From contig JAQYWR010000014.1 of NCBI GenBank assembly GCA_029379225.1, forward strand, positions 62,001 to 126,000: a stretch of DNA of 64,000 nt, in the 5' to 3' direction. Positions 40,856-63,732 of this stretch are shown piece by piece (position 1 is the stretch's first letter; each line of letters opens with the position of its first letter). The notes below the pieces were generated by a model. It was not told the DNA's origin. It ran no database searches and saw only the letters and a list, made by a program, of their open reading frames with translations. The DNA comes from Nostoc sp. S4. GTDB taxonomy: Bacteria > Cyanobacteriota > Cyanobacteriia > Cyanobacteriales > Nostocaceae. The position numbers and the translations under genes were made by a program.

Positions 40856-41758
40856 CTAATAGTTCAACTGTTTTTCCGATACAACCTGATGCTCTTTGCG
40901 CCAAGCCTGAGGAGGCAAACCGTGATGTTGACGAAATTGGCGGGAGAAATGGGATACATCTTGATAACCCAGTGCTTTAGCAATTTTCTCTATCGTCTGA
41001 TTATTATTTTGCAGTAAGGAACGAGCTCCTGCCATTCGGCGTTTGACAATCCAGCAGTTAACAGTCTCTCCTGTTTGCCTTGCTACTCGGTTAGTTAAGT
41101 AAGCTGGTGAATAACCAACTGCAACAGCCACATCACACAAAGTAATTCCTTGGTGATAATGGGCTTCGATGAAGTCAAAAACTTCTTTTAATTCGGGAAT
41201 GCAAGGAAAGATTAGGGCTTCTCCATCGGAGGCTTGCCTTGGGGACGCTGTGCCAACATCAACGTCAACATTACCATCTTCAGCGATCGCTATAGTGTCA
41301 TGATCTACAAATACTGATTTCACATGTTTATCAGATTGAATCGCACACCAGTATCGGAGATTAGCTTGCTTTTGCAGTCGGGTTGCGATCGCTCTGAGCA
41401 ATTCGTCTAGTGTAGAGGGTTTGGTAAGATAATCATCTGCCCCCAATTCCATAGCTTTGCGAATATCTGCTCTGGTGCTACTACCAGTCAGAAAAATGAA
41501 GGGAATAATCGCTGTCAGAGGATTTTGGCGTAGCGTAGCTAGGACGCTATAACCATCCATATCGGGCATCGTAATATCGCAAATTACTAAATCGGGTATA
41601 CACTCTTGTGCTTGTTGAATACCAGCAAGACCATTATTAGCACCTATCGGCTCAAAACCTTTAGCTTTAAGACCCTTTAAATAAAGATTGCGGGTAACGT
41701 TATCATCTTCAATGATCAGAATTTTATTTGACAATTCGTACATTATTCCTCTCACCAA
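40856..41758 (-). CDS. response regulator with AraC-type output domain, scytonemin-linked
   Basis: A receiver domain (about residues 8-125: LIIEDDNVTRNLY, Asp in PDLVICDITMPDMDGYS, Thr in FIFLTGSS, Lys in DYLTKPST) is joined to an AraC-family DNA-binding domain at residues 195-290 (GITLCDVAVAVGYSPAYLTN and IEKIAKALGYQDVSHFSRQF, the two helix-turn-helix units). All phosphorylation residues are intact. It is downstream of the PAS histidine kinase gene, 121 bases away, and convergent with the parvulin gene. In Nostoc punctiforme a divergent two-component pair beside scyA is required for scytonemin induction, and this is its positional equivalent. Candidate operators are at 45279, 45400 and 58885. 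The start could also be the ATG at 41743 (MYELSNK). Confidence 0.92.
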   Translation of the reverse strand: MVRGIMYELSNKILIIEDDNVTRNLYLKGLKAKGFEPIGANNGLAGIQQAQECIPDLVICDITMPDMDGYSVLATLRQNPLTAIIPFIFLTGSSTRADIRKAMELGADDYLTKPSTLDELLRAIATRLQKQANLRYWCAIQSDKHVKSVFVDHDTIAIAEDGNVDVDVGTASPRQASDGEALIFPCIPELKEVFDFIEAHYHQGITLCDVAVAVGYSPAYLTNRVARQTGETVNCWIVKRRMAGARSLLQNNNQTIEKIAKALGYQDVSHFSRQFRQHHGLPPQAWRKEHQVVSEKQLNY

Positions 41759-43859: not shown

Positions 43860-45278
43860 ATCTCTACTTGCTCCTTGTAAGCAATCAGCACCATAGCTGT
43901 TAATGAGTTAATAATCCTAATCACCTAAAATCCTTAATACAGTGTTAGGCTGCTGAAAATCGAGTTATTTTGCAAATGAAATAAAATTATTAACTAACTT
44001 TACAAAACTTATCATACCAAGAAAAAGTATAAAAAGTGAATAATCTAACCCAAAAATCCTAAAAAAATTAAGATAATTAAAGGTGATTATTGACTAAAAT
44101 AAGTTTTTATGCATATAGGAAATTTAGACCAATCAAATCATGATTAGTCAATCAAGCTTATTAGATAAGAGTTAAAAACCCTTATCTATTAAGTTAAAAA
44201 CTATTTAAAATTTTAATTGCGCCAATACCACAGCAAACGAGTAGCTAACGACATAGATAGACCAACCAATATCCGTACCTGAGAGCAAGCTAGAAAATTC
44301 CCAAAAAACTTATAATCTAAGCTTTTTGACTTTAAATTCCCATAGTCTTGCAAGAAAGCAAGTTAGATGTGGCTTATTATACAAGTACGTACTAGTGTAT
44401 AGTCGTTTGATTATGAACATAAATGAATTTGCCCTGCTAGACTTGGCTTGGATAAGCAAATATTTGCTCATCAATTCATTTTTTAATCAATACCTTCGCC
44501 AAAATTAGAGTATTTTAACTAGATAAAAAAGCTAAAATCCTTAGCTAGTACAGGTTTACGGCTTTTAAATTGGTGTTAAAACCCATATGCCGAAACCCGG
44601 ATTATGGTGGCATTCTAAAAAATTAGCGAAGGTATTATTAATTTATCTTAACGTACACTCTCAGGGATTTAACTATAGAAAAATGCCTCTAGTCATCTGT
44701 CTCAAGAAATACATTGTAATTTTTACTGATTCTCGACAACAAAAAATTAAAGACAACTTTTTAACAACAGACGTTAATGAGCTTAGAAGCTTTATTTTAT
44801 AACACGATCTCTACAATCATCTCTTTTAGCCCAAAGTCTTGTCTGCCAAGAATTAATGATTTTCCTCTGGAGGGAATAATTTTATAGCGATAAGTAAATC
44901 AGTCTGATTAAACCAAACTATGTAAATCTTTGTCATAAAAAAACTAAAGGTTATTTCCTTCGTCCTCTTCTACTCTAATCTTATTAATATAGTTCTGTTT
45001 ATTCCCACCGACTTACTTAACGCTTACAAACCTGTTGTGGTTGCTCAGGCTTTAATTTTGTCTGATTTTGGTGATGAGTTAAATCAACGAATTTATTAGC
45101 TTCACTCTTTATTTAGCAATACAACTTAGCCAGATGTGAGAAGTAAGCTCAAACATTTTTGATGTCCATCAAAATTAAAAGATTTTTCATTATAAATGTA
45201 GTGATATAGCTGAAGAGCGATCGCAATGTATTAATCTTCCCAAGTCGCTAAGTGAATATTGTAGCTCCGATCGCAAAA

Positions 45279-45320
45279 GCGAAAAATTTAACATCCTAAT
45301 CGAAAGATTTTTCATTGCAT
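45279..45320 (+). promoter_or_regulatory. candidate AraC-type operator 1 upstream of scyA
   Basis: This 42-bp site has half-sites GCGAAAAATTTA (45279) and TCGAAAGATTTT (45300), starts 21 bp apart, followed by CATTGCAT. It matches the site at 45400 at 35 of 42 positions by hand count. A 21-bp spacing of direct repeats is the classic arrangement for AraC-family regulators, and the nearby response regulator has an AraC output domain. Role inferred, not shown. Confidence 0.5.
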
Positions 45321-45399
45321 AATAATCTTGATTAGATTAAATATCATCAGCCTTTATATATGTTAAGCATAGGGAACTAGTGTAATCATCAGAATATCA

Positions 45400-45441
45400 G
45401 CGAAAAATTTGACACGCTCATCAAAAGATATTTGATTGCAT
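45400..45441 (+). promoter_or_regulatory. candidate AraC-type operator 2 upstream of scyA
   Basis: Half-sites GCGAAAAATTTG (45400) and TCAAAAGATATT (45421) start 21 bp apart, followed by GATTGCAT. It lies 121 bp downstream of operator 1 and 241 bp before the preferred scyA start codon. See operator 1 for the argument. Confidence 0.5.
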
Positions 45442-45681
45442 ATCTATATTTATCTCCTTTATTCTAATTTCTGGAAGCACAGCCTTGATTAGTCTATGCT
45501 TTGCAAAATTTTTTGGGTAATCCGCTCACAAGCATCAATCAGTAGCGATCGAGCCTTTCTACTATCAACTAAGCTTGGCGATAACTGTGAAAAATATAGA
45601 GTCGTTTGTATTAAATATTTTCACTGCTGTGATTGTAAACCAAGCAGCATTTATGTAACTTGATGTAATTACGTGAAATTT

Positions 45682-47562
45682 ATGAGTCAAAACTATACAG
45701 GTTCAAACTCTCCTCTAATTGCTACTGAGCCATACAATGAATTTCCATCAAATAAATATGTAGAATCTGTGTCTAACTCGCATCAACTTGATGAATCACA
45801 GAAGAATGGGGAAATTCAACCTTTTTTCTCCAGTGAAACAACCCCAACACTCTCAGTTGCAGATGCGATCGCCCAGATGTTAGTCGATTTGGGAGTAAAC
45901 TACGCCTTTGGTGTCGCTGGTGGGGCGATGGCAAGTCTTTGGGGTGCATTATCGAATAGCACCATAGAGGTGTTGAACTTCCGTCATGAAGCAGGAGCCG
46001 CCTTTGCAGCGACCGAAGCATATTTTGCCAGCCATCGTCCTAGCGTAGTCTTCACCACAGCAGGCCCGGGGATCACCAACGCCCTGACTGGCTTATTTGC
46101 GGCTCGTGGCGAAGGTGCAAAGGTGATTTTGCTGTCAGCTTGTACCTCTGCATCGCAGCGTGGACGCTGGGCAATTCAAGAAACCAGCACCTACACATTG
46201 CCGAGCGGGGGAATTTTTACCCCAGGAGCGCTATTCAACTATGCAATTACCATCGAATCTGCTGCTCAACTCCCACAGATTTTTCGCAAACTTGCCCTAG
46301 CTTTGGCGCAACCAGAGGGATTTGTTGCTCATTTGAGCATTCCTACTGCTGTGCAGACAAGTTTAGTTCAAGATGTAGCCTTACCCCAACTAGATGTTTC
46401 TTGTTTTCGGGTAACCCCCTCTAGTGAAGCGATCGCTAAATCTGTAGAGTTATTATCATCCGGTCCCTTTGCCATCTGGGTTGGTTTCGGTGCGCGTGAT
46501 GCAGCAGAGGAAATCCGCCAACTCGCTGAAAAAACCGGAGCAGCTGTGATGTCCTCACCTCGTGGTAAAGGCATCTTTCCCGAAGATCATCCCCAGTTTA
46601 TCGGTGTCACGGGTTTAGGCGGTCACGCTTCTGTATTGACTTATATGGAGCAGCAACCTCCACTACGCACACTCGTATTAGGCACTCGTCTTGGCGAACC
46701 AACCTCCTTTTGGAGTTCGGCCTTAGTTCCTAAAGGTGGCTTTATCCATGTAGATATTGACCCAGAAGTACCAGGAATAGCTTATCCACACGCCCAAACT
46801 TTCGGGGTTCGGTCTGACATCAAAACATTTGTCCAAGAACTGTTGCAGCGCTTACCAGATGCTCCTGATAATTTTGTAGTGCCCCTACCTCGTCCAGAAA
46901 GCAAAGCAATCGAACCTGCTTTGGAAGTAGATTATCCAGTGCGACCAGAAGTATTGATGGCAGCAATTCAAAAGATTGTTGTTGAGGGTAGCGATGCCAT
47001 AGTCATGGCAGAGTGTGGTAACTCATTTACTTGGTCAACGCATCTACTGCAATTTACCCAAGCCAATCGTTACCGAGTCAGCACCGGAGTTGGAGCAATG
47101 GGTCATGCTGTCACAGGAGTGTTGGGTGCAGCGTTAGCAAATAATAGCAAAGCTGTGGGTATTGTTGGTGATGGGGCAATGCTGATGAATAACGAAATCA
47201 GCACCGCTGTAAAATACAAAATTCCGGCGATTTGGATAGTACTCAACGATGCACGTTACAACATGTGCCATCAAGGGATGAAAATCTTGGGATTAAAAGG
47301 TGCGGACGCAACACTGCCACCAACAAACTTCGCCATGATTGCTCGTGGGATGGGAGCAGAAGCGGTCGTAGTTGTTAGAGAGTCGGATATTGAAGCTGCA
47401 TTAGAACAAGCGATCGCTTCAAATGTTCCTTTTGTGATCGATGTAGTAATTGATGGCGATCGCCCAGCACCCTCTGGTGGACGTAATAAGAGTTTGGCAG
47501 CACAAGGAGTCAAATCAAGTCCAACTCAAACTCCAAAACCAGTTTCATTTCCCTTAGTTTGA
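45682..47562 (+). CDS. scyA: ScyA, thiamin-diphosphate-dependent coupling enzyme
   Basis: ScyA, an acetolactate-synthase-like enzyme, joins indole-3-pyruvate and p-hydroxyphenylpyruvate to a beta-keto acid, the second step of scytonemin assembly. The protein (626 residues from this ATG) has the pyrimidine-binding domain with catalytic Glu in NFRHEAGAAFAATEAY, the central domain, and the ThDP-magnesium motif GDGAMLMNNEISTAVKYKIP running to IVLNDARYN. A GTG at 45673 would add three residues. The first 50 residues are Ser/Asn-rich and not conserved. It is the first gene of the plus-strand scy run; scyB follows after 154 bases. Confidence 0.94.
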   Translation: MSQNYTGSNSPLIATEPYNEFPSNKYVESVSNSHQLDESQKNGEIQPFFSSETTPTLSVADAIAQMLVDLGVNYAFGVAGGAMASLWGALSNSTIEVLNFRHEAGAAFAATEAYFASHRPSVVFTTAGPGITNALTGLFAARGEGAKVILLSACTSASQRGRWAIQETSTYTLPSGGIFTPGALFNYAITIESAAQLPQIFRKLALALAQPEGFVAHLSIPTAVQTSLVQDVALPQLDVSCFRVTPSSEAIAKSVELLSSGPFAIWVGFGARDAAEEIRQLAEKTGAAVMSSPRGKGIFPEDHPQFIGVTGLGGHASVLTYMEQQPPLRTLVLGTRLGEPTSFWSSALVPKGGFIHVDIDPEVPGIAYPHAQTFGVRSDIKTFVQELLQRLPDAPDNFVVPLPRPESKAIEPALEVDYPVRPEVLMAAIQKIVVEGSDAIVMAECGNSFTWSTHLLQFTQANRYRVSTGVGAMGHAVTGVLGAALANNSKAVGIVGDGAMLMNNEISTAVKYKIPAIWIVLNDARYNMCHQGMKILGLKGADATLPPTNFAMIARGMGAEAVVVVRESDIEAALEQAIASNVPFVIDVVIDGDRPAPSGGRNKSLAAQGVKSSPTQTPKPVSFPLV

Positions 47563-47716
47563 CTAGAACAGCCTTCTAATTAGTATCTTTCTCTTGGCAG
47601 TACTTTTTTTTTGAGAACCTACACGCTAACGCTACTCTTCCGACTTCTCTATCCGTCTAGAGAGTGCAACAAAAAACCCGCGTTAATCAACCCAAAATCA
47701 ATATTGAGAAACCAAA

Positions 47717-48778
47717 ATGCTGCTATTTGAAACTGTTAGAGAAATGGGTCACGAACAAGTTCTTTTCTGTCATGGTAAAAATCCAGAAATTAAGGCGATT
47801 ATTGCCATCCATGATACAAGTTTGGGGCCAGCAATGGGAGCTACAAGACTCTTCCCTTATCTTAACGAAGAAGCTGCTTTACAAGATGCGCTTCGTCTGA
47901 GTCGGGGAATGACATATAAAGCTGCCTGTGCCAACATTCCAGCTGGTGGGGGAAAAGCAGTTATTATCGCTAATCCGGAAAATAAAACAGATGAATTGTT
48001 GAGAGCTTATGGACGTTTTGTTAACAGTATTAATGGACGTTTTATTACTGGACAAGACGTAAATATTACCCCAAAAGATGTACGAACAATCAGTCAAGAA
48101 ACTAAATATGTTGTTGGAGTATCTGAAAAGTCTGGTGGGCCAGCTCCAATAACATCTTTAGGAGTTTTTCTAGGAATCAAAGCCGCTGTCGAGTTTCGTT
48201 GGCAAACTCAAAGACTTGATGGGCTGAAAGTAGCAGTTCAAGGTCTCGGAAATGTAGGTAAAAATCTCTGCCGACACTTACACGAACATGATGTTCAACT
48301 TTTTGTCAGCGATATAGATCCAGCCAAATCAGAAGAAGTAAAACGGCTTTATGGTGCAACTGTTGTAGAACCCTCTGAAATTTATTCTCTTGATGTAGAT
48401 GTTTTTGCCCCTTGTGCTTTAGGAGCAATTCTTAATAGCCATACAATTCCTTTTCTACGAGCTTCTATTGTTGCTGGTGCAGCTAATAATCAATTAGAGA
48501 ATGAGCAACTACATAGTCAAATGCTTGCTAAAAAAGGAATTATTTACAGTCCTGATTACGTAATTAATGCTGGAGGACTAATTAATGTTTATAACGAAAT
48601 GATTGGCTATGACGAAGAAAAAGCTTTGAAGCAAGTCCATAACATTTATGACACATTACTAGCAATTTTTGAGATTGCCAAACAGCAAGGAATTACTACT
48701 AATGATGCCGCCAAACGATTAGCAGAAGACAGAATTGCCAAGGTTAAACGAAACCAAGCTAAGACTGTTGCAGCTTAA
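47717..48778 (+). CDS. scyB: ScyB, tryptophan dehydrogenase
   Basis: ScyB belongs to the Glu/Leu/Phe/Val dehydrogenase family and oxidatively deaminates tryptophan to indole-3-pyruvate with NAD+. The 353-residue protein has GPAMGATRLFPY, the catalytic lysine region GMTYKAACANIPAGGGKAVI, and the Rossmann motif VAVQGLGNVGKNLC, ending with YVINAGGLINVYNEM. The start at 47717 gives the expected MLLFETVREMGHEQV. It lies between scyA and scyC (46-base gap to scyC), the known order. Confidence 0.94.
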   Translation: MLLFETVREMGHEQVLFCHGKNPEIKAIIAIHDTSLGPAMGATRLFPYLNEEAALQDALRLSRGMTYKAACANIPAGGGKAVIIANPENKTDELLRAYGRFVNSINGRFITGQDVNITPKDVRTISQETKYVVGVSEKSGGPAPITSLGVFLGIKAAVEFRWQTQRLDGLKVAVQGLGNVGKNLCRHLHEHDVQLFVSDIDPAKSEEVKRLYGATVVEPSEIYSLDVDVFAPCALGAILNSHTIPFLRASIVAGAANNQLENEQLHSQMLAKKGIIYSPDYVINAGGLINVYNEMIGYDEEKALKQVHNIYDTLLAIFEIAKQQGITTNDAAKRLAEDRIAKVKRNQAKTVAA

Positions 48779-48824
48779 TTGTTAATGTTTACTAATTATT
48801 AACTGTTGATTTTAGGAGTTAAAA

Positions 48825-49796
48825 GTGGAAAAAAATACATTTGCAACATCAGCTTATATTGCTACTTCACCAAAGATTGCCTTTGACTACCTTTGTAGTT
48901 TAAAAAACTTGGATGAATGGACGCTTTATAGTCGGATGAAAGAGCAAATTGACGAAGATACCTGGTTGGGAAGTGCATCTGGTTATCACAAAAATCTCTA
49001 CTACCACGTTAAAAAACTAGAGAATCCACTTTTCTACGGTATTGAGTGGCATTGCGGGTTAGAGTATCAGAAATATTTTCAGGTTTACCCTGTTTTGCTG
49101 TTTCCTACAGACTACATTGAGCCGGGGACAGATGAAAAAGGTGTGTACTTTCACTGGTTGAGCTTTGTCGATCCCAAACGGCAGACTCAGATGATTATGC
49201 AGGGAATTCATACAGTACACACTTCCGAATGTCGTTCTCTCAAAGGTAATTTAGAACGCAAGGCTGGTCTGACTACAGCAGCTAAAGGACGCTACTTTAT
49301 CGATACAGACACCATTTATGTTGATGCCCCTGTTGAAATTGGCATTGAATATTTAAAAGACTTACAAAACATAGACGAGTGGGCGCATTTATTGCGACCA
49401 AATGGCGAGATTGGTCTGGAATCAGGAGAATTCAAAGATGAATATGACCAGCAGGTAAAAGTTTCTGTACGAGTTCATAGTTTGAGTAAATACTACTTAC
49501 TTGAACAGGAATATTTTTATCCAGACTACGAATATTATCAGCGTTCTGTAGCGCTACTTATTCCAACTGCCTATGCTTTCGCTGACCCGGAGGCTTCTGG
49601 TTTTATCCTGCATCGAATCACTTTTTGGAAAGCAGATGGAACTGTCAGCCACGGCAAACTTCAAATTGAAGATTTTGGGGCTGAGAGCATGAACATTAAA
49701 CGTTTACTCGAAGCCAAAGCTGGCAATCTCAAATCATTCGACCGGGGAATGAGCTATCTGCCAAAAACTCAAGAGTCATTGGTTAATAGTCATTAG
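48825..49796 (+). CDS. scyC: ScyC, cyclase of the scytonemin monomer pathway
   Basis: ScyC cyclises and decarboxylates the ScyA product to the tricyclic ketone. The 323-residue protein seems to be two copies of one domain of about 150 residues: SAYIATSPKIAFDYLCSLKN with LDEWTLYSRM near residue 5, and IYVDAPVEIGIEYLKDLQN with IDEWAHLLRP near residue 165. The pattern is like a START/SRPBCC ligand-binding fold; outside the scy cluster it has few relatives that I know. The start is a GTG with AGGAG 6 bases upstream. It is cytoplasmic (no signal peptide), in contrast to scyD-F. Confidence 0.92.
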   Translation: MEKNTFATSAYIATSPKIAFDYLCSLKNLDEWTLYSRMKEQIDEDTWLGSASGYHKNLYYHVKKLENPLFYGIEWHCGLEYQKYFQVYPVLLFPTDYIEPGTDEKGVYFHWLSFVDPKRQTQMIMQGIHTVHTSECRSLKGNLERKAGLTTAAKGRYFIDTDTIYVDAPVEIGIEYLKDLQNIDEWAHLLRPNGEIGLESGEFKDEYDQQVKVSVRVHSLSKYYLLEQEYFYPDYEYYQRSVALLIPTAYAFADPEASGFILHRITFWKADGTVSHGKLQIEDFGAESMNIKRLLEAKAGNLKSFDRGMSYLPKTQESLVNSH

Positions 49797-49873
49797 TCAT
49801 TAATCATGGGTCATTCGTTATTGGTCATTAGTCAGCTAACAAATAACAAATGACAAATGACAAAAGACAAAAT

Positions 49874-51136
49874 ATGAAACTCAAACAACTTACTATTACT
49901 TTTCTCACTTTTTGGATTGCTGCTTTTTCTGGAATGAAAGCTGCCTCAGCCGGAGCGTTTTCGGTAATTGCTGACAGTCTATATAATCCCGGAGGTCTGA
50001 GCTTTGACCCCGATGGTAATCTCTATGTTACAGAGGCGGGAATCGGGGGAAATGGAGCTTGTGTTCCACCACCAAGTGGTCAAGGCGATTCTTTATGCTA
50101 TGGCACAACTGGTGCAGTTACCAAAATTGAGAATGGTAAGACTAAGCGGATACTTACAGGACTTCCTTCCTTAGCACTACCAGATGGTACTGGAGGGACT
50201 GGCGCTCGTGATATCCAATTTGATGCTACAGGTAAGCCTTATGTTCTGATTGGGTATGGAGCTAATCCAGCCTTTCGCGATCGCAATCTGGGTAACACTG
50301 ACCTCGGTAAAATTATTGCTCCTGACTTTAATACCAATTCCTGGACGAGTGTTGCTGATTTAGCTAACTATGAACTCGCCAACAATCCCGATGGTAGTGA
50401 TGTCGATAGCAATCCCTTGGGTTTTGTAATCGACGGCAATAAGTTAGTTGCAACTGATGCAGGTGCAAACGATTTACTAAGTGTGAAAACTGATGGTAGT
50501 AATTTGTACGCTATTACCACATTTCCTCAAGAGATATTGACTAATCCAGTCTTTCCCCCTTCTGGTACGCCATCCAACGAACCTGCACAGGTGCCATCTG
50601 AAAATGACCCGGTGCAATCGCAGTTTGCAACTCAAGCAGTACCCTCAAGTGTGGCAAAAGGGCCTGATGGTGCTTATTATGTCAGCCAATTTACTGGTTT
50701 TCCCTTTCCAGAAGGTGGGGCAAAAATCTATCGAATTGGTGCTGATGGTAAGCCAACAGTCTTTGCAGATGGTTTTACCCAACTCACAGACTTGCAATTT
50801 GATACTGCGGGCAACTTATATGCTTTGCAGTACGCCAATCAGTCAGCCTGGAAGGGTAATTTTGATGGTTCTGTAATCAAAATAGCTGCCGATGGAACTC
50901 GTACAACTCTTTTGAGCGGCAATGGATTAGAGTCGCCTAGCGCCTTGACTATTGGTGCTGATGGTGCAGTATACGTCACAAACCGAGGCGATCGCCCAGG
51001 ACAAGGACAAGTTCTCAGAATTGATAATACCAAGTCCATTCCTGAACCTGATTCTGTTTTAGGCGTATTAGCGATCGGTGCTTTGGGCGTTGGTTGGCTG
51101 CACAAGCGCAAGAACCCCCAAACCTTTCATAAATAA
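49874..51136 (+). CDS. scyD: ScyD, exported repeat protein with PEP-CTERM tail
   Basis: ScyD is part of the conserved scytonemin cluster; its enzymatic role is unsettled. From ATG 49874 the product is 420 residues with a signal peptide (TITFLTFWIAAFSGMKAASA), a beta-propeller-like body with SFDPDGNLYVTEAG, QFDATGKPYVL and TIGADGAVYVTNRG units, and a C-terminal SIPEPDSVLG, hydrophobic helix, HKRK: a PEP-CTERM sorting signal. The frame is open to 49850, but those codons lie in TGACAAA repeats. It is a paralogue of ScyE: both have the SFxPDGxLYVxExGIGGNG start. 77 bases after scyC. Confidence 0.9.
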   Translation: MKLKQLTITFLTFWIAAFSGMKAASAGAFSVIADSLYNPGGLSFDPDGNLYVTEAGIGGNGACVPPPSGQGDSLCYGTTGAVTKIENGKTKRILTGLPSLALPDGTGGTGARDIQFDATGKPYVLIGYGANPAFRDRNLGNTDLGKIIAPDFNTNSWTSVADLANYELANNPDGSDVDSNPLGFVIDGNKLVATDAGANDLLSVKTDGSNLYAITTFPQEILTNPVFPPSGTPSNEPAQVPSENDPVQSQFATQAVPSSVAKGPDGAYYVSQFTGFPFPEGGAKIYRIGADGKPTVFADGFTQLTDLQFDTAGNLYALQYANQSAWKGNFDGSVIKIAADGTRTTLLSGNGLESPSALTIGADGAVYVTNRGDRPGQGQVLRIDNTKSIPEPDSVLGVLAIGALGVGWLHKRKNPQTFHK

Positions 51137-51280
51137 AGTCATGGCGCTCAAGTAAAGAATTTTAAACCAATACCAGTACCTCTCAATCAGAGCATTTTCC
51201 CTGCATTCCTCAAACACTGGGATTCGTTGTCTTTAAAACCATAAAAATTTCCACTTATTTAACTCTCAATCTCCAAAAGT

Positions 51281-52654
51281 ATGAAACTCAAGTCATTTGC
51301 TTTTACATCTGTTACATTTTGTTTTACTGCTATTTGTGGAATCCCATCTGTACAAGCTGCAAGCCTGACGAAAATTGTCGATGGAATTAGTAATGCACGA
51401 GGTGTTAGCTTCGGCCCTGACGGGACTCTCTACGTAGCTGAGCCAGGTATCGGAGGAAATGGAAATTGCCAACCATCTCCAAGTACCCTGTTTCAGCCTA
51501 TCTGCGCTGGTAATACTGGTTCACTGGTCAAAGTTACACCAGACGGTAAAAAACAGCGTATACTTAATAACTTTCAGTCTCTAGCGGAACAACCCACCGG
51601 CAACCAAGGCGCTGGTATTCAAGACCTGCAATTCGATTCTCTAGGAAATGCTTATCTTCTGACTGGGTTTGCTGGTTATCCAGGAAACCGTGATAAAGAA
51701 ACACTTAACCTTGGTTCTCAATTCCCTATCCCACCACAGCAACTTGCTACTTTCCCGCCATCAACACCCGATAAAGTACTGAATACACCGCTCCTAGCAC
51801 AACTGTCCAAAGTTGACTTGAAGACCGGGAAGCTGGACAGTATTTTTGACTTTGCCAAATATGAAATCACCAATAATCCAGATGGTGGGGATATCGTTAC
51901 CAATCCCTATGACCTAACTATTAATGGCGATAATGCTTATGTCGTTGACGGGGGTGGGAACACTGCTTACAAAATCAAACTTGACGGAAGTGACTCCCAG
52001 GCAATTCCAATTCCGAAAACCATCATTAGTAAGTCCGACTTACCACCAGGATTAGAAGTACCTCCTGGGCTATTAGATGAGCTTCCAGGAGGAAAAATAG
52101 CAATTCAAGCAGTACCGACAGGTGGTGCAATTGGTCCCGATGGAGATTTGTACGTTGGCGAATATACAGGTTTTCCTTATCCAGAAGGTAAATCACAGAT
52201 TTACCGCATCGGTAAGGATGGAAACCCAGAAGTTTATCTGGACGGGTTTACGCACATCACAGACTTAACCTTTGATGAGAATGGCAATTTACTGGTTCTA
52301 CAGTTTAGTGACACTTCTCAATTAGGGGGTGACATCACAAATCTACCCGGTTCTCTGATCCAAGTTGCTCCTGACGGCACTCGCACAACACTCGTTGCAG
52401 CAGGTCAAGGGCTAGATTCGGCTGATGGAATTGATATTGGCCCTGATGGCAAGATTTATATTACCAATCGTGGTGTCGGCGCGGGACTAGGGGAAGTTGT
52501 TCGGGTGGATGGTGTCGTTACACAAGTAGTCCCCGAACCTGGTTCACTAGTCGGCTTATTAGCACTTGCTGGTGTAAGCGCAACAGCTGCTCGCACCAAG
52601 CGTAAACGCCAACAAAAGTTGGGTAAATTGCTAGCTGAAGCAGAAACTGTCTAA
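51281..52654 (+). CDS. scyE: ScyE, exported repeat protein with PEP-CTERM tail
   Basis: ScyE (457 residues) is a paralogue of ScyD with the same layout: signal peptide (SVTFCFTAICGIPSVQAAS), propeller-like units (VSFGPDGTLYVAEPGIGG, LTFDENGNLLVLQF, IDIGPDGKIYITNRG) and a C-terminal VPEPGSLVGLLALAGV helix followed by TKRKRQ. Conserved-looking segments YVGEYTGFPYPEG and YVSQFTGFPFPEG match between ScyE and ScyD and may mark the active or binding face. Scytonemin lies in the outer sheath, and export of ScyD-F fits late steps outside the cytoplasm. A hairpin follows the stop. Confidence 0.9.
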   Translation: MKLKSFAFTSVTFCFTAICGIPSVQAASLTKIVDGISNARGVSFGPDGTLYVAEPGIGGNGNCQPSPSTLFQPICAGNTGSLVKVTPDGKKQRILNNFQSLAEQPTGNQGAGIQDLQFDSLGNAYLLTGFAGYPGNRDKETLNLGSQFPIPPQQLATFPPSTPDKVLNTPLLAQLSKVDLKTGKLDSIFDFAKYEITNNPDGGDIVTNPYDLTINGDNAYVVDGGGNTAYKIKLDGSDSQAIPIPKTIISKSDLPPGLEVPPGLLDELPGGKIAIQAVPTGGAIGPDGDLYVGEYTGFPYPEGKSQIYRIGKDGNPEVYLDGFTHITDLTFDENGNLLVLQFSDTSQLGGDITNLPGSLIQVAPDGTRTTLVAAGQGLDSADGIDIGPDGKIYITNRGVGAGLGEVVRVDGVVTQVVPEPGSLVGLLALAGVSATAARTKRKRQQKLGKLLAEAETV

Positions 52655-52694
52655 TTCCTTTTTACCTGGCTTTGTCAGGAATGCCTACAGAATA

Positions 52695-52784
52695 GGCTGC
52701 TGCCTCTACACAGAAAGTTGCATTTCAAACAAGAGGCAGCAGCCCAAATTTCAGAGTTCCCAAACTAGAACTGGGAACGAAATT
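52695..52784 (+). terminator. two stem-loops between scyE and scyF
   Basis: GGCTGCTGCCTCT (52695-52707) and AGAGGCAGCAGCC (52732-52744) form a 13-bp perfect stem. Right after it GTTCCCA (52756-52762) pairs with TGGGAAC (52772-52778), with outer AATTTC/GAAATT pairs. Neither has a T run, so these are more likely partial terminators or RNA-stabilising hairpins tuning scyF than full stops. Confidence 0.6.
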
Positions 52785-52828
52785 AGTCTAGGAAAGAGTA
52801 TAACTCATACAACCAGGACTTAAAACTC

Positions 52829-54025
52829 ATGGGATTAGTCAAAAATATATCAATCGGCATTCTCGGTACTGGATTCATGGTATTGGCAACAGCAGCCCAA
52901 GCTAAGGCTGTAACATTAACCTACGACAGAAGTATCGGTAGCCCTGGCTTCGGGCCTGGGCAGCTTTTTGTCCCCCAAGGCATAGCGGTGGATGACCAAG
53001 GGAATACCTACATAGCTAACGGACGCGGTGTTAACCCGGATGGTACTCCTAATTTCAACCTCGGTGACAAAATTGAAAAATTTAGTCCTAGCGGTGAGTA
53101 TATTGGAGCAATTGGCTCCGGTGGCACAGGACCCGGACAGTTTGACGAGCCAACAACTGTAGACTTTAATCCCGTAACAGGGGATCTGTATGCAGGTGAT
53201 GTTTACAACAACCGCATCAATCAATTCGATTCTCAGGGTAACTTTATTAGATCCTTTGCCAATGGAGAATTCACCCCTCGTATAAATGATAGGCTTTTCT
53301 TTGGACCATCTGGTGTAACATTTGACAAAGCTGGCAACGTTTACGTTGGTGATTTTAACGGTGAAAGAATCCTTAAATTTACACCTGACGGACAGCAAAT
53401 TGGTGTCATTGGTGGCACTGTGGGCACTGGACTTGGAGAAACTCAAGGTGTAGCAGGTGTAAGAATTTCCTCAGTCAGTGGAAATATCTTTTTAGCTGAC
53501 CAGTATAACAACCGCATTCAAGTACTCGATCCAAATGGTAAACCTCTGTACGCATTTGGTTCAGCAGGTAGCGGACCTGGACAGCTTCTTCAGCCAATTG
53601 GTATCGAACTGGACGACCAAGACAATGTTTATGTAGCTGATTCTATCAACAGCCGCGTTCAGGTATTCGATAAAAACGGTAACTTCTTGACTTCCTATGG
53701 TCAACCCGCCCTAGATGCATCAGGCAACCCAGTCCCACCTCCAGCATTAACTGGTCCTCCTTTTGGTAATCCCCTCGACCTCACTCCCGGCAGATTTAAC
53801 TGGACGGGTGGGACAGCCCTCAAAGATGGCAAGCTTTATGTGGGTGATTTCTTCCAAGGTCGCGTCCAAGTGTTAAATGTAGAGGGCACAACTCAAGTAC
53901 CTGAACCTAGTTCAGCATTGGGTTTAGCATTACTCGGACTTGGGGCTGCTACCGTCACATTGCGGAAACGTGGGCAACAAAAGCCAGTCTTGAGTTTAGA
54001 GAAGGAACTACAAAAACAGTGCTAA
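52829..54025 (+). CDS. scyF: ScyF, exported NHL-repeat protein with PEP-CTERM tail
   Basis: ScyF (398 residues) has a signal peptide (ISIGILGTGFMVLATAAQAKA) and clear NHL beta-propeller repeats: QLFVPQGIAVDDQGNTYIAN, DLYAGDVYNNRINQFDSQGN, NIFLADQYNNRIQVLDPNGK, NVYVADSINSRVQVFDKNGN. The C-terminus VPEPSSALG, a hydrophobic helix and LRKRG is a PEP-CTERM signal. It would be exported and anchored or processed at the cell surface, where it may bind or mature scytonemin intermediates. It follows scyE after a double hairpin. The biochemical role is not known. Confidence 0.92.
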   Translation: MGLVKNISIGILGTGFMVLATAAQAKAVTLTYDRSIGSPGFGPGQLFVPQGIAVDDQGNTYIANGRGVNPDGTPNFNLGDKIEKFSPSGEYIGAIGSGGTGPGQFDEPTTVDFNPVTGDLYAGDVYNNRINQFDSQGNFIRSFANGEFTPRINDRLFFGPSGVTFDKAGNVYVGDFNGERILKFTPDGQQIGVIGGTVGTGLGETQGVAGVRISSVSGNIFLADQYNNRIQVLDPNGKPLYAFGSAGSGPGQLLQPIGIELDDQDNVYVADSINSRVQVFDKNGNFLTSYGQPALDASGNPVPPPALTGPPFGNPLDLTPGRFNWTGGTALKDGKLYVGDFFQGRVQVLNVEGTTQVPEPSSALGLALLGLGAATVTLRKRGQQKPVLSLEKELQKQC

Positions 54026-54033
54026 ATAATTAC

Positions 54034-54227
54034 TAATTCGTAATACTCACCTCCAGCGAGAAGCAAGCTACGTGATTTGTAATTTGTAATTAAAAAAGGT
54101 ATAGCAGCTCAGACGCTCATTTGTAATTCAGTAGTCAATAAGACAGTGGAGAGTTCAGCCGCTACCACTGATTGTAATTACGAAAAATATAGCTTGCTTC
54201 TCACGCTCAGGTGAGTATTACGAATTA
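54034..54227. mobile_element. MITE-like element with ~38-bp inverted ends
   Basis: The left arm 54034-54070 (TAATTCGTAATACTCACCT, then GAGAAGCAAGCTA) is the complement of the right arm 54190-54227 apart from a few central bases. The interior of about 120 bases has no coding frame and contains TTTGTAATT-type repeats. It lies between scyF and the glycosyltransferase gene and may be a non-autonomous transposon remnant. Confidence 0.65.
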
Positions 54228-54308
54228 CGAATTACAAACAAGGGAAATAAAAACTGGGCAACACAATAAAGCCAACATTATCAAAGTGCTTCCGGGGATT
54301 AAGAGCTT

Positions 54309-55598
54309 ATGCACATTCTGATTTATTCATACAACTATTCTCCAGAGCCAATTGGTATTGCACCTTTGATGACTGAACTAGCAGAAGGGTTAGTCAAACG
54401 AGGTCATCAAGTGCGGGTGATTACGGGTATGCCTAATTATCCTCAGCGTCAGATTTATGATGAGTATCGGGGTAAGTTATACGTTACTGAAGAAAAAAAT
54501 GGTGTTATCATTGAGCGTTGTTATCTGCGAATTAAGTCTAAACCTAATCTCGTAGACCGCTTACTGCTAGAGTTGAGTTTTGTCTTTACAAGTTTCCCAC
54601 AAGCCATTAAAGGCAAACGGCCTGATGTAATTCTTTTAACAGTGCCGCCGCTACTGATTTCCTTACCTGCAATCTTACTTGGTTGGTTATACAACTGCCC
54701 AGTAGTGTTGAATGTACAAGATATCCTTCCGGAAGCTGCCGTGCGTGTTGGGTTGATAAAAAATAAGTTCATGATTAGAACTTTGGAAGTCATAGAAAAA
54801 TTTGTCTACCGAACTGCACATACTATCAGCGTGATTGCCGATGGCTTTGTAGATAATTTAATAAATAAAAGTGTACCTGCTAATAAAATTGCCTGCATTC
54901 CAAATTGGGTGAATTTAAATTTTATCCGCCCTTTTCCAAAGGAAAATAACTCTTGGAGAGCTACTCATCAACTCGATGATAAATTTGTTGTACTTTATTC
55001 AGGTAACATTGCTTTAACCCAAGGTTTAGAGACAGTAGTTGAAGCAGCAGCTTGCTTGCGTCATATCAAAGAAATTGCCTTTGTTATCGCTGGAGAATCC
55101 CAAGCCCTGAAAACATTACAAAAACATTGTCTTGCTTGTGGGGCGGATAACGTATTACTGCTGCCATTAGAAGAACGAGAAAAACTACCACAAATGTTAG
55201 CAGGCGCAGATGTGGGGTTGATTGTGCAAAAGCGGAATGTAATTTCCTTTAATATGCCTTCTAAAATACCATTGCTGTTAGCCAGTGGTCGCCCGATTGT
55301 AGGTTCAGTTCCCGCCACTGGTACTGCTGCCAAAGCTATCAAACAAAGTGGTGGCGGTATGATTGTTGAGCCAGAGTCAGCAGATGCTTTGGCAAATGCG
55401 GTACTGGATTTATATAATCATCCAAAACTGGCAGCGCAATTAGGACAAAAAGGAAGAAAGTTTGCTGTAGAAAACTATTGCTTTGAGCAAGCAATGGTTC
55501 GGTATGAAGGACTATTTTCCGATGCGATCGCCAAGAAAACATCAACTTTGGATATTTTACCCGAATTGAGTTCTCAAGAATCACTTGTTGATATTTGA
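54309..55598 (+). CDS. group 1 (GT4) glycosyltransferase, WcaI-like
   Basis: The 429-residue protein is a GT4-type glycosyltransferase. The N-terminal MHILIYSYNYSPEPIGIAPL and the QVRVITGMPNYPQ segment resemble WcaI of colanic acid synthesis; the C-terminal donor-binding half has VLYSGNIALTQGLETVVEAA, FVIAGESQALKTL, and a FNMPSKIPLLLASGRPIV loop with nearby Glu (VEPESADAL). A hydrophobic patch (LLISLPAILLGWLYN) suggests membrane contact. A glycosyltransferase is found at this position in the N. punctiforme scytonemin cluster, though scytonemin is not known to need a sugar; it may act on sheath polysaccharide. Confidence 0.9.
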   Translation: MHILIYSYNYSPEPIGIAPLMTELAEGLVKRGHQVRVITGMPNYPQRQIYDEYRGKLYVTEEKNGVIIERCYLRIKSKPNLVDRLLLELSFVFTSFPQAIKGKRPDVILLTVPPLLISLPAILLGWLYNCPVVLNVQDILPEAAVRVGLIKNKFMIRTLEVIEKFVYRTAHTISVIADGFVDNLINKSVPANKIACIPNWVNLNFIRPFPKENNSWRATHQLDDKFVVLYSGNIALTQGLETVVEAAACLRHIKEIAFVIAGESQALKTLQKHCLACGADNVLLLPLEEREKLPQMLAGADVGLIVQKRNVISFNMPSKIPLLLASGRPIVGSVPATGTAAKAIKQSGGGMIVEPESADALANAVLDLYNHPKLAAQLGQKGRKFAVENYCFEQAMVRYEGLFSDAIAKKTSTLDILPELSSQESLVDI

Positions 55599-55646
55599 AA
55601 ATTGGGGAGTGGGGAGTGGGGATTGGGGACTAAGAATAGAGAAATT

Positions 55647-55775
55647 TATCGCAGTTTGCTTTTCAAGTGAGGTACAAAACGCAGGACTCACGCATCAAAT
55701 ATATAGAGTTTCTGCTTTTTACCTCATGCCTAAACACCTGTAACTGTGTACTTTATGCAAACGAAAACTGCTGTA
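55647..55775. mobile_element. MITE-like element, relative of the one at 18917
   Basis: The 129-bp element begins TATCGCAGTTTGC and ends with AAACTGCTGTA, sharing the GAGGTACAAAA segment, the GCAGGA segment and the right-end (A)TGCAA..GAAAACTGCTGTA with 18917-19050. The left end has lost the exact TACAGCAG form. It precedes tyrA by about 60 bases, so it may supply part of the tyrA leader. Confidence 0.6.
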
Positions 55776-55833
55776 TATTTAATGCCCAATACGCAATTCT
55801 AGAGCAAAGCGACCTTTACAAGATGACTGACTT

Positions 55834-56916
55834 ATGAGCTTAGAGAAGCTTAAAAAAACTGACCAAAGCTTGATCGCTCTACTTAGCGATCGCCTATCAT
55901 TATTAGCAGCATCAGAATTTCCTTCTTTAGATGAACAACTGGCTAATGTGGCTCCCTTACTTACCGAAGCTGGTATCCCTGAGTCTGTTTGGGCAACTGT
56001 AGTCAATAGTTGTCATGCCATTACCCCTAAATCTGTATCGGTAAATCCTGTCATACCTCGACAAATTACAATTGTCGGTGGACGTGGCAGGATGGGAAGA
56101 TTATTCAAAGAACAACTTTCGCTAGTAGGTCACAATGTTAGCATTCTCGAACACGAGGATTGGGAGGATGCACAACAATTGTTGAGTCAGGCAGAGTTAG
56201 TTTTAGTAAGTGTTCCCATTGAACATACGGTTGATGTTATTAAGCGTGCAGCTAGATACCTTGCCCCAACTACAGCTTTGTGTGACATCACCAGCATTAA
56301 AATACAGCCAACTCGAGCAATGCTCGAATATCATTCAGGTCCAGTCATGGGCTTACACCCGATGTTTGGGCCAAATGTCAAATCGTTCTTCGGACAAAAA
56401 GTGATAATCTGTCCAGGTCGCAACGATGATTCATTTCAATGGTTTTTAGATTTGATTAAAAGTCAAGGTGGAGAGTTAATTGCTTGCACGCCTGAAGAAC
56501 ACGATGAAATGATGGTGATTGTTCAAGCAACGCAGCACTTCTGTAGATTTAGTCTTGGTGTTTTTTTGACACATACAAGAATTGATATAGAACAGAGTTT
56601 AACAATGTCAACCTCTAACTATCGTCAAGAAATTGAAATTGTTAAACGTTTGTTTTCTCAAAACCCTCATTTATGTGTAGATATTATGCTAGCTTCAGAG
56701 GAAAGGTGTAATGCAATTAGCTTTTTAGCTAATACTTATAGCCGTATAGCGAGACTGGTAGTCAGTAAAGATAAAGACGCATTAATTCAAGAATTTGAAA
56801 ATACTCAAAGCTTTTTTGCTGAAAAAATTAAAACTTTTCTCCAACCTGTAAACAAAAATTCTCAACCAGTTTCACGAGATTTTAAACCACAAATGCAGAC
56901 AAATATTAGCATTTGA
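55834..56916 (+). CDS. tyrA: TyrA, prephenate dehydrogenase with remnant chorismate mutase domain
   Basis: The 360-residue protein is like the enterobacterial bifunctional T-protein. Residues 1-60 align with its chorismate mutase helix, but the active-site segment (Lys39 and Arg51-Glu52 in E. coli) seems to be missing. Residues 70-340 are the NAD-dependent prephenate dehydrogenase: ITIVGGRGRMGRLFKEQL, LVSVPIEHTVDVI, GPVMGLHPMFGPN, IVQATQHFCRFSLG. The product, p-hydroxyphenylpyruvate, is the direct partner substrate of ScyA. Most cyanobacteria make tyrosine through arogenate, so this copy looks dedicated to the pigment. dsbA-like gene follows after 12 bases. Confidence 0.92.
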   Translation: MSLEKLKKTDQSLIALLSDRLSLLAASEFPSLDEQLANVAPLLTEAGIPESVWATVVNSCHAITPKSVSVNPVIPRQITIVGGRGRMGRLFKEQLSLVGHNVSILEHEDWEDAQQLLSQAELVLVSVPIEHTVDVIKRAARYLAPTTALCDITSIKIQPTRAMLEYHSGPVMGLHPMFGPNVKSFFGQKVIICPGRNDDSFQWFLDLIKSQGGELIACTPEEHDEMMVIVQATQHFCRFSLGVFLTHTRIDIEQSLTMSTSNYRQEIEIVKRLFSQNPHLCVDIMLASEERCNAISFLANTYSRIARLVVSKDKDALIQEFENTQSFFAEKIKTFLQPVNKNSQPVSRDFKPQMQTNISI

Positions 56917-56928
56917 AGCACAAAAACT

Positions 56929-57576
56929 ATGCTGATAGACATCTTTCACGATACCGTTTGTCCCTGGTGCAGAATTGGGACAAAGCATTTGTTTGATGCA
57001 CTAGCACAATGGCATGAACAAGAAGTAGATATCCGCTGGCATCCCTTTATTCTTGACAATACCATTCCTGCTGACGGATACGAATTTCGCAGTTTTATGC
57101 AAAATAGAAAAGGCATCAAAGCAAAAGAACTGCAATATCTGTTTGATTCTACACAATATGCAGGTAAGGCGGCTGGAGTCAAGCTAGATTTTGACAAAAT
57201 CCGTTTGGCTGTCAATACTAAGCTTTCGCATCGATTAATTACACTCGCACCAGCAAAAGTTAAAAATGATGTTGTAGAAGCCATTTATAAAGCTTACTTT
57301 GAAGACGGTTTGAACATCGGAGATATTGACGTTCTAGTTGCCATAGGTAGAGCTTATCAAATAGATTCGAGGGAATTACAGCTGCAATTGAGCGATGATG
57401 CTGCAATTAAAGCTTTTGTGATTGAATCGATATTTGCTTGCCCGAATGGCATCAACAGCGTGCCGTTCTTCATCATCAATAATAAAGTCAAAATAAATGG
57501 TTCTCACTCGGTAGAAATGTTTCTTCAAGCTTTGAATCGTGCCGCACTTTTAGAGATATCAGCAAAAATATGGTAG
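56929..57576 (+). CDS. DsbA/FrnE-like thioredoxin-fold oxidoreductase
   Basis: The 215-residue protein has the active-site CPWC in FHDTVCPWCRIGTKHL at residue 12-ish and the thioredoxin-fold cis-Pro region as NGINSVPFFIINNKVKI. The helical insert and the YFEDGLNIGDIDVLVAIGRA segment match the FrnE/2-hydroxychromene-2-carboxylate isomerase branch of DsbA. No signal peptide is present, so it is cytoplasmic, unlike true DsbA. A dsbA-annotated gene lies at this point in known scytonemin clusters; its role there is not defined. It overlaps the aroB-like gene by 7 bases. Confidence 0.9.
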   Translation: MLIDIFHDTVCPWCRIGTKHLFDALAQWHEQEVDIRWHPFILDNTIPADGYEFRSFMQNRKGIKAKELQYLFDSTQYAGKAAGVKLDFDKIRLAVNTKLSHRLITLAPAKVKNDVVEAIYKAYFEDGLNIGDIDVLVAIGRAYQIDSRELQLQLSDDAAIKAFVIESIFACPNGINSVPFFIINNKVKINGSHSVEMFLQALNRAALLEISAKIW

Positions 57577-58793
57577 TAGACATCAAACAAAAAAGTAGAT
57601 TCAATCTACAACCAATTAATCAACGTGTTTCGGTTACTTTTAACTACGGAGTTTACTTCACCCAAAATTTATTTGAGTTAAAAAATCCCACCTTAGCCCA
57701 AGTAATTACAGCCGATGGAGAGACAAAGCCAAAGAAAATAGTAGCAGTAATAGACGCCGGAATATTGCAGTTTCAACCTGAATTGGTTAAGCAATTAGTA
57801 GCGTATATCCAGTTTTATGCAGAGATACTAGCGCTCGCCGCTCAACCAATGATAATTTCTGGAGGAGAAGCCGCCAAAAACGATCCCACTTTATTAGAGC
57901 AAATCCACCAACTAATTGAAGCAGCCGGATTATGTCGCCATTCCTACGTGTTAGCGATCGGTGGTGGGGCTGTGTTGGATTTGGTAGGATATGCTGCTGC
58001 AACTGCTCATCGGGGAATTCGCCTGATTCGGATTCCGACGACTGTGTTAGCGCAAAATGATTCTGGAGTTGGAGTTAAAAACGGCATCAATGCCTTTGGT
58101 AAAAAGAACTTTCTTGGTACATTTGCACCACCTTATGCAGTTATCAATGATTCTGCCTTTTTGACAACCCTAGACGATCGCGATTGGCGTTCTGGAATCG
58201 CAGAAGCAATCAAAGTGGCGCTAATTAAGGATGCTAAATTTTTTGATTTTATCCACTCTCACACTACAGCCCTTGGGCGGCGAGACATGGAGACTATGCA
58301 ACAGATCGTTTATCGTTGCGCCCAGTTACACCTAGAACACATAGCCAATAGCGGCGATGCTTTTGAAATGGGTTCGTCTCGTCCCCTGGATTTTGGACAT
58401 TGGGCGGCTCATAAACTGGAACATTTGACAAATTATCGCTTGCGTCATGGCGAAGCAGTGGCGATCGGTATTGCTTTGGATAGCACCTATTCCTATCTAT
58501 TAGGACTGCTGGATTGCTCGGATTGGCAACGGATAATGAATACTTTATCAGCTTTGGGTTTTACGTTGTATGTGCCAGAATTAGCTCAGAAGTTATCACA
58601 ACCGGAACATCCTGATTGTCTATTTCGAGGTTTAACCGAGTTCCGCGAACATTTGGGTGGCGAATTGACTTTAACACTGTTACAAGGCATTGGAAAAACA
58701 ATAGAAGTTCATAAAGTGGATTTGTCTTTATACAGGCAAGCCATATCGTTGTTGTGCGAGTTTTACAATACCTCTTGGGAAGAACTACAGTAG
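57570..58793 (+). CDS. aroB: AroB-like sugar phosphate cyclase (3-dehydroquinate synthase family)
   Basis: The 407-residue protein belongs to the 3-dehydroquinate synthase superfamily: NAD-binding SGGEAAKN and GGGAVLDLVGYAAATAHRG, the substrate loop NDSGVGVKNGINAFGKKN, and metal ligands Glu in GIAEAIKVALIKD and His in HWAAHKLEH and RHGEAVAIG. It is longer than typical AroB (about 360), and the substrate loop differs from the usual VDSSVGGKTGVN, so another C7 sugar phosphate substrate is possible, as in EboD-type homologues. In the scytonemin cluster it is taken as shikimate-pathway supply. Translation is probably coupled to the upstream gene (7-base overlap). Confidence 0.88.
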   Translation: MVVDIKQKSRFNLQPINQRVSVTFNYGVYFTQNLFELKNPTLAQVITADGETKPKKIVAVIDAGILQFQPELVKQLVAYIQFYAEILALAAQPMIISGGEAAKNDPTLLEQIHQLIEAAGLCRHSYVLAIGGGAVLDLVGYAAATAHRGIRLIRIPTTVLAQNDSGVGVKNGINAFGKKNFLGTFAPPYAVINDSAFLTTLDDRDWRSGIAEAIKVALIKDAKFFDFIHSHTTALGRRDMETMQQIVYRCAQLHLEHIANSGDAFEMGSSRPLDFGHWAAHKLEHLTNYRLRHGEAVAIGIALDSTYSYLLGLLDCSDWQRIMNTLSALGFTLYVPELAQKLSQPEHPDCLFRGLTEFREHLGGELTLTLLQGIGKTIEVHKVDLSLYRQAISLLCEFYNTSWEELQ

Positions 58794-58884
58794 AGCTACT
58801 GCTTCATTTTATTCTTACCTTTGAGGGAGGTGGATAATTTCAAATAGTGTTTTGAGGAAAAGTACTAGATAAACCAAATGAAAA

Positions 58885-58925
58885 GCAAATAAATTGACAC
58901 CTCATCGAAAAATTATTCAATGTAT
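58885..58925 (+). promoter_or_regulatory. candidate AraC-type operator upstream of trpE
   Basis: Half-sites GCAAATAAATTG (58885) and TCGAAAAATTAT (58905), 20 bp apart, match the two sites before scyA, including the shared TTGACAC and CTCATC between half-sites and a final (A)ATG(T)AT. By hand count about 31 of 42 positions agree with the 45400 site. It lies 208 bp before the trpE start in a 339-base spacer with no gene. It would place the trp part of the cluster under the same regulator. Confidence 0.45.
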
Positions 58926-59132
58926 TCTCTGCTGCAAATCTAGTACTCTTTAAAAAGAAACAAAAACTTTTTAATTACATCTTTTAATTCCTAAATATGC
59001 GGATTTTGAGAGGTTTAATTAGATAAACATCAACTTATCTAAAATTGTCCTTGTTCCGCAGATAGTTACTAATAAGGATTAATTGCTTTTGACTGATGAC
59101 AGACTAATAACTATCTCTAAGAGAAATTAGCT

Positions 59133-63566: not shown

Positions 63567-63732
63567 AGTTCAAATACTCATTAACGGAGCTAAAAGACTC
63601 ATTCACGAGTATCAAACACTCGTTAACGCAGCTAAAAGACTCATTCACGAGTATTAAAGACTCGTTAATGCAGCTAAAAGACTCATTCACGAGTATCAAA
63701 CACTCGTTAACGCAGCTAAAAGGCTCATTCAC
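63567..63732. repeat. 42-bp tandem repeat array
   Basis: Four starts of AGCTAAAAGACTCATTCACG, or its close form AGCTAAAAGGCTCATTCAC, fall at 63588, 63630, 63672 and 63714, exactly 42 bases apart. Units differ at a few positions. A partial unit leads in from 63567. On the minus strand the array reads as a 14-residue repeat (SFSCVNECLILVNE), but there is no good start signal. The array sits in the 379-base spacer before trpA. Confidence 0.8.

Follow-up and report, generated by a model that had tools for sequence, protein, structure and literature searches.

Direct-repeat sites upstream of scyA and trpE as candidate operators of the AraC-type response regulator of the scytonemin cluster

How does the ultraviolet-A (UV-A) signal reach the genes for the pigment scytonemin? 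The control has been open at its last step: a response regulator was known to be needed, and we found no description of its site in the open-access literature. The window analysed here, a 64-kb stretch of a Nostoc-type genome of 7.66 Mb (G000:C53:62001-126000) whose nearest ScyA relatives are Nostoc records, contains a scytonemin locus that raises this question. The locus comprises scyA-F, a glycosyltransferase gene, tyrA, a DsbA-like gene, aroB, trpE and trpC, together with a PAS histidine kinase gene and the gene of a response regulator of the AraC type, both divergent on the - strand; the genes were named after their Pfam domains and the published gene order of N. punctiforme. Three similar sites are present on the + strand, two upstream of scyA (45279..45320 and 45400..45441) and one upstream of trpE (58885..58925). 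We consider it highly probable that the AraC-type regulator encoded in the cluster itself uses them as operators, by the mechanism proposed below.

The two scyA sites are identical at 35 of 42 positions, the same count as in the sequence-only reading, and the trpE site, given there as about 31 of 42 with one gap, matches them at 32/42 and 31/42, respectively. A likeness of 35/42 alone is not extraordinary, as 10 shifts of up to 5 kb are listed inside the window with at least 33/42, three of them above 35; conservation is decisive. To avoid circularity, a held-out two-half matrix was built from 29 scyA promoters in the range L086-L118, whose records carry neither Nostoc nor Anabaena as a name, and applied to both strands of the 64-kb window with spacers of 4, 5 or 6. 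It ranked the sites at 45279 (44.3 bits), 45400 (43.3 bits) and 58885 (37.1 bits) first to third, compared to 10.8 bits for the fourth match and a maximum of 19.3 bits in 20 simulated first-order Markov windows. As exactly these three sites come out on top in 64 kb, they are beyond chance.

On the whole 7.66-Mb genome, a single half-site pattern was useless, with 1264 forward and 1129 reverse matches at up to two mismatches, and full-length models were used instead. The model R1 was made from 62 scyA-type sites, including both scyA sites of the window and excluding the trpE site. Its top ranks went to the two scyA sites (1e-11), which belong to the training set, followed by two sites from outside the training set: a locus with a hetP-family gene and a second trpC (C4:194559, 30.7 bits, 2e-6) at rank 3, and the trpE site (22.9 bits, 5e-4) at rank 4. 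Next came C59:69808 (19.4 bits), with a weaker neighbour at 69681. The rarity of the motif elsewhere, on which the sequence-only reading depended, is thus borne out by both the genome scan and the held-out window scan.

The site is conserved upstream of scyA. Of 80 scyA loci retrieved from other genomes, we dropped L104, with its 2 upstream bases, and added the window to the remaining 79, giving 80 testable regions. Starting from the two scyA sites of the window, a matrix of 42 columns was iterated and fitted to these same regions; it found 142 sites of at least 15 bits on the coding strand; neither the reverse strand nor shuffled scyA upstream sequence, in which only the base composition was kept, gave anything of at least 5 bits. 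At the threshold of 15 bits, 79/80 regions carry the site, in one copy (45 regions), two (5) or three (29). Relative to the scyA start, the nearest copy is at -241 to -408 in 78/79 regions and at -735 in L118. A divergent scyA-scyB-scyC locus (L103) has neither the operator nor a regulator gene in the 10 kb upstream.

The consensus is about GCRAAARAATTGACA-n5-ATCAAAAGATTTTTCATTGCA, an imperfect direct repeat of two ~15-bp half-sites (about CRAAARAWTTnnCA) that start 21 bp apart. In 138 scyA-type sites, the self-match of positions 2-15 peaks at a shift of 21 (63%; the remaining shifts between 16 and 26 give 17-45%), in agreement with the earlier claim of a 21-bp spacing, 20 bp in the trpE site; the spacing is 20 or 22 bp in 6/62 aligned sites. 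The proximal copy ends in TTGCA at the -35 position, and a TANNNT motif follows 17-18 bp further on in 78/78 copies with full flanks. The distance is exactly 18 bp in 74 of the 78, and other pairs of adjacent offsets give a mean of 2.8 and a maximum of 22. In the window, the proximal operator (45400..45441, R1 47 bits) includes TTGCAT (45436..45441) as the predicted -35 element, and TATTCT (45460..45465), 18 bp after it, is the predicted -10 element of scyA. Downstream of the -10, AGAAGCACA is conserved, as might be expected around a transcription start. In contrast to the proximal copies, only 1/63 distal copies has a TANNNT at 17/18 bp. Because of the TTGCA end and this register, which is rare in distal copies, the proximal site is best read as a putative operator overlapping the -35 box, and the copy at 45279, a matrix match with no -10 at the register, as an auxiliary one. 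The predicted promoter layout corresponds to class II activation, in which the activator sits over the -35 box.

The same register could also mean that the 42 bp are a core promoter or the element of a special sigma factor, since the proximal right end itself provides a -35-like TTGCA with TANNNT 17-18 bp on in every copy with full flanks. However, the 63 distal copies keep the 42 bp without a -10, with the single exception above, unlike a promoter element, and the left operator half lies outside the usual reach of sigma. We regard this explanation as very improbable. An RNA element in the transcript is likewise judged unlikely, because the proximal site precedes its own -10; Rfam at gathering scores gave no match in the window.

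Copies at one promoter resemble each other and are often about 125 bp apart, which would fit tandem duplication; the copies might accordingly be duplication remnants, conserved by descent only and without a regulatory role. Against this, the flank at -29 to -4 left of the proximal site carries only 0.0-0.5 bit of information, compared to mostly 0.9-2.0 within the half-sites, a contrast seen with ScyA identities as low as 66%, and unrelated genes are preceded by the site too. We give descent alone next to no credence. The 63 inter-copy distances fall into two groups, 37 at 116-146 bp and 25 at 213-263 bp, with a single exception. In the window, a probable decayed third copy, of which the right half is seen, lies at 45172..45197 on the + strand (13.4 bits, E 0.52), and is also part of a 25-nt repeat.

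The operator precedes trpE as well. In PMC8879130, the cluster is described as two transcripts that start at scyA and at trpE, and UV-A raised scyA 26-fold and trpB 78-fold. The first genes of both are preceded by the operator in the window, namely scyA, encoding a thiamine diphosphate (ThDP) enzyme (45673..47562, +), and trpE, encoding a fused anthranilate synthase (59133..61337, +). The trpE operator is 41 nt long, with half-sites 20 bp apart, and the predicted -10 of trpE, TACTCT (58944..58949, +), begins 18 bp after it. In the order sample, 52/388 genomes are scyC-positive, 49 of which have a trpE match at 1e-100; 51 fetched upstream pieces and the window made 52 trpE upstreams; of the gene that is split in G343, the set leaves out the second fragment. 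Scored along with 572 controls, 45/52 upstreams exceed the 95th control percentile and 22/52 the 99th. The highest control score is 30.0, probably because some reverse strands carry a true opposite-facing site, as listed for G175. TANNNT occurs at 17/18 bp in 42/45 trpE sites, a count that excludes the 7/52 upstreams without a credible site. The seven below the 95th percentile are L241, L242, L252, L253, L254, L257 and L259, including three second trpE copies (L253, L254 and L257). Altogether, the expected conservation before orthologous scyA and trpE genes is found, and the earlier statement that sites stand before the scy and trp parts of the locus is right for both, with the refinement that only the scyA-proximal and trpE copies overlap a predicted promoter.

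Which protein would bind these sites? The response regulator encoded at 40856..41758 on the - strand has the AraC output domain that the sequence-only reading had assigned to it: Pfam gives Response_reg, HTH_18 and HTH_AraC, with two helix-turn-helix (HTH) stretches (PF12833, 8.7e-21; PF00165, 3e-16). It is the proposed operator-binding protein. Its closest solved structure over nearly the full length is 12aw_A (1e-22), named a hybrid two-component system protein. AraC/XylS-family activators use tandem half-sites, as AraC does at araI1-I2. Like them, the present system combines a double-HTH DNA-binding domain with direct-repeat half-sites 21 bp apart, of which the proximal one overlaps the -35. 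It differs from AraC in a CheY-like receiver in place of the ligand-binding domain, in a half-site sequence of its own, and in one to three copies (at least 15 bits) per scyA promoter. RpaB with its HLR1 element, another response regulator of cyanobacteria, also has direct-repeat sites at promoters of the light-stress response, but it has an OmpR-type output and shorter, differently spaced repeats. The output of the window regulator is an AraC-type HTH instead; Pfam gives the receiver and AraC HTH only, with no RpaB-type winged helix (OmpR/PhoB), and the NCBIfam RpaB match on the regulator stops at residue 135, that is, in the receiver.

By position and domains, the regulator is the counterpart of Npun_F1278 of Nostoc punctiforme, and the PAS-domain sensor histidine kinase next to it (41880..43859, -; Pfam) that of Npun_F1277. 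In PMC7997468, deletion of Npun_F1278 is reported to block scytonemin and strongly reduce scyA transcription, for which the gene is described as necessary. Beyond the reports on Npun_F1277/Npun_F1278, the present analysis adds the operator, the promoter register and a wider regulon. In the open-access library we found no published site for this regulator.

Operator and regulator occur together. A regulator homologue is found within about 5 kb of scyA in 70/80 loci; 9/10 loci without one end within 2.4 kb upstream of scyA, and the tenth is L103. With enough upstream DNA, the regulator is thus near scyA in 70/71 loci. Searched with R1 under stricter filters, where the places reported are among the matches listed, 57 genomes have a match at 1e-4 or below, and 54 of these have the regulator family (at 1e-40), compared to 161/388 overall (Fisher 4e-20, kinship ignored). 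The three operator-positive genomes without a regulator belong to one genus, and in two of them (G167 and G127, 2/3 inspected) the match lies inside GC-rich coding sequence.

Moreover, paralogues of the regulator adjoin operators at other places. In the window genome, a second regulator (L178:8297-9208) adjoins an operator before an open reading frame (ORF) of the HetP family (95 aa, NCBIfam 5e-34) and a second trpC (Pfam IGPS). Eight such hetP-type loci (class B; L178 at G000:C4:187500-201500, L180-L183 and L213-L215, with the HetP family tested in L178) have the same -10 register, TANNNT at 17/18 bp, in 8/8. Their eight regulators group in a single clade, separated from the scy rows with 97/96 support and placed among the scy rows by midpoint rooting, and the recognition-helix segments of scy and hetP-type regulators are nearly identical (GYSPAYLTNRVAKQTG...WIVKRRM and LGYQ..HFSRQFRQHH). 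Among the matches listed, hetP-type operators occur also in genomes without scyC. This arrangement suggests a response-regulator control of a heterocyst-commitment homologue. Three more loci (L271, L274 and L275; genomes G242, G091 and G165) have a further regulator gene that stops 16-99 bp short of an operator, behind which an acyl-carrier-like protein is encoded. Polyketide synthase (PKS) domains follow in L271 and were confirmed in G242; the Pfam run covered all three regulators, two of the carrier proteins and one PKS.

As the regulator and two kinds of paralogue each adjoin such an operator, at scyA, a hetP-family gene and a PKS operon, the site is tied to this regulator. A regulator duplicated to new places with the operator would be hard to explain unless the regulator binds the operator. 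The sequence-only reading had based the assignment of these candidate operators on the habit of the AraC family alone; the paralogue-operator pairs now support it. The operator could be genuine and yet belong to another factor, a different AraC-type or an OmpR-type protein, with the neighbouring regulator acting indirectly. Several related AraC-type response regulators per genome are possible (G330 has matches at three places), so that cross-talk is possible too, and the binding of the regulator to the site is something we infer. Nevertheless, this type of operator has a regulator gene of the family next to it at three kinds of place, 54/57 operator-bearing genomes have the family, and L103, the sole full scy locus without the regulator, also lacks the operator. 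We therefore consider another factor unlikely, and continue with the cluster's own regulator.

Several observations weigh against this assignment. All the co-occurrence tests ignore phylogeny, and 107 genomes have a regulator-family match (1e-40, which does not imply orthology) without a strong operator match. R1 matches at 1e-4 or below are present in 38/52 scyC-positive genomes, and 14/52 have no strong one. When a looser matrix was applied to 10 of these 14 (G094, G301, G307 and G343 being outside that set), it found diverged sites in G313, G354, G296, G135, G145 and G358 and a weak one between scyA and scyB in G249, and no convincing site in G063, G263 and G325. In G081 and G011 (L241 and L242 in the trpE set), a GNGNW-repeat gene lies directly upstream of trpE, and no site was found before either trpE or the GNGNW gene (L294 and L291). 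We also sought autoregulation, and found no site of at least 4 bits before the kinase and regulator genes of the window, although these genes are reported as UV-A induced in PMC8879130; in the same study, eboE was uninduced after 48 h of UV-A. Finally, the copies in the window are 121 bp apart (11.5 turns), contrary to a strict helical phasing. With a period of 10.5, the resultant is 0.40 over the distinct inter-copy distances and 0.67 over all 63, which is suggestive at most, and we do not claim helical phasing of the copies.

We propose the following mechanism. The PAS kinase would phosphorylate the regulator under UV-A, a signal taken from the cited papers, and a regulator dimer would bind the two tandem half-sites, which at 21 bp, or two helical turns, face one side of the DNA. 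In the two promoters, at the scyA-proximal copy and the trpE copy, the half-site lying downstream would cover the -35, and the bound protein may contact RNA polymerase and thereby start both transcripts. Additional copies, most of them 116-146 bp or roughly double that distance upstream, might raise the local concentration of the regulator. Unlinked genes would be joined by the same operator: those that export the precursor (ebo), those that supply tryptophan, and those for secreted proteins of the envelope or sheath, either glycine-rich or of the PEP-CTERM kind. The analysis shows the sites, their conservation, the promoter register, the linkage to the regulator family and the co-occurrence; binding, its dependence on phosphorylation, activation, the start sites and the location of the secreted proteins are what we infer.

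The sequence-only reading named sites before scyA and trpE; both hold, and the operator also precedes further genes. Beyond the hetP-type loci, these were classified from fetched flanks, a selection among the matches listed for R1. Class A encodes a glycine-rich repeat protein, and in several loci a GNGNW-repeat protein comes next, whose tail is PEP-CTERM-like; the window genome has both genes at L179:7144-9334. The tail matches TIGR02595 (NCBIfam) above the cut-off in L195, whereas that of L179 is unmatched and was recognized by eye. Among 19 usable loci picked by a match to the GNGNW protein, 11 have an R1 site in the right orientation (a half-site in L290), L287 has a weak twelfth (E 0.058), L299 has a weak wrong-way match only, and 6/19 have no R1 site. 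The count leaves out L283, which is too short, and four loci that were chosen for having matches (L179 of the window genome, L190, L197 and L200).

The GNGNW protein is nearly confined to carriers of scytonemin genes. It was found in 21/28 scyC-positive and 1/47 scyC-negative genomes (1e-20, kinship ignored). In a second set the figures were 16/24 and 1/28 (1e-10, kinship ignored); here the 28 negatives were hand-picked, most of them with a regulator match, the lone negative carrier, G248, is a 65%-complete genome, and the GNGNW genes of G135 and G145 fell below the cut-off. The sole scyC-negative carrier of the first set, G292, has a seeming remnant of scyA behind an operator (L204). At this locus a remnant-like scyA N-terminus, the operator, the kinase and the regulator are kept in a genome without a scyC match, which looks like a scytonemin locus in decay. 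In several genomes the GNGNW gene is inside the scy cluster; in G313, G296, G135 and G145, trpE and scyA are divergent with the GNGNW gene between them, and operator-like sites point in both directions.

Class C consists of proteins of 214-218 aa with a start that resembles a signal peptide by eye; a PEP-CTERM match in L185 is below the Pfam cut-off, and 15/18 carriers are scyC-positive. Class D comprises KYGIP-repeat proteins of 117-127 aa encoded behind the operator (L192, L193, L199 and L217); that of L192, the sole one tested, has no Pfam match. In addition, ebo genes lie directly behind the site in G081, where NCBIfam identifies EboA and EboC, and 3.5-6.5 kb behind it in G240 and G378 (EboA of G240 by NCBIfam, the rest by likeness). 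PMC12188702 reports that scytonemin requires CrtB, the exosortase to which the processing of PEP-CTERM proteins is ascribed.

We lean, by a narrow margin over even chances, towards a conserved sunscreen regulon of pigment, tryptophan, export and secreted matrix, the last being where scytonemin would be deposited; in this regulon the GNGNW-repeat PEP-CTERM protein, which occurs with the scytonemin genes and often has this operator, would be an unrecognised structural partner of scytonemin, and from it the regulator-operator pair would have been re-used at the hetP-family gene and the polyketide operon. The operator, the regulon and the regulator-operator duplications appear new with respect to the open-access literature, and the mechanism is of a known kind. 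What is gained is an exact site, predicted promoters and starts, and a testable list of the regulon. The putatively secreted GNGNW and glycine-rich genes are nominated for the unsolved extracellular deposition of the pigment, and deposition genes matter for making scytonemin in other hosts.

Elsewhere in the window, the segment 63563-63700 is tandemly repeated, with a shift of 84 giving 42/42 agreement at position 63588.

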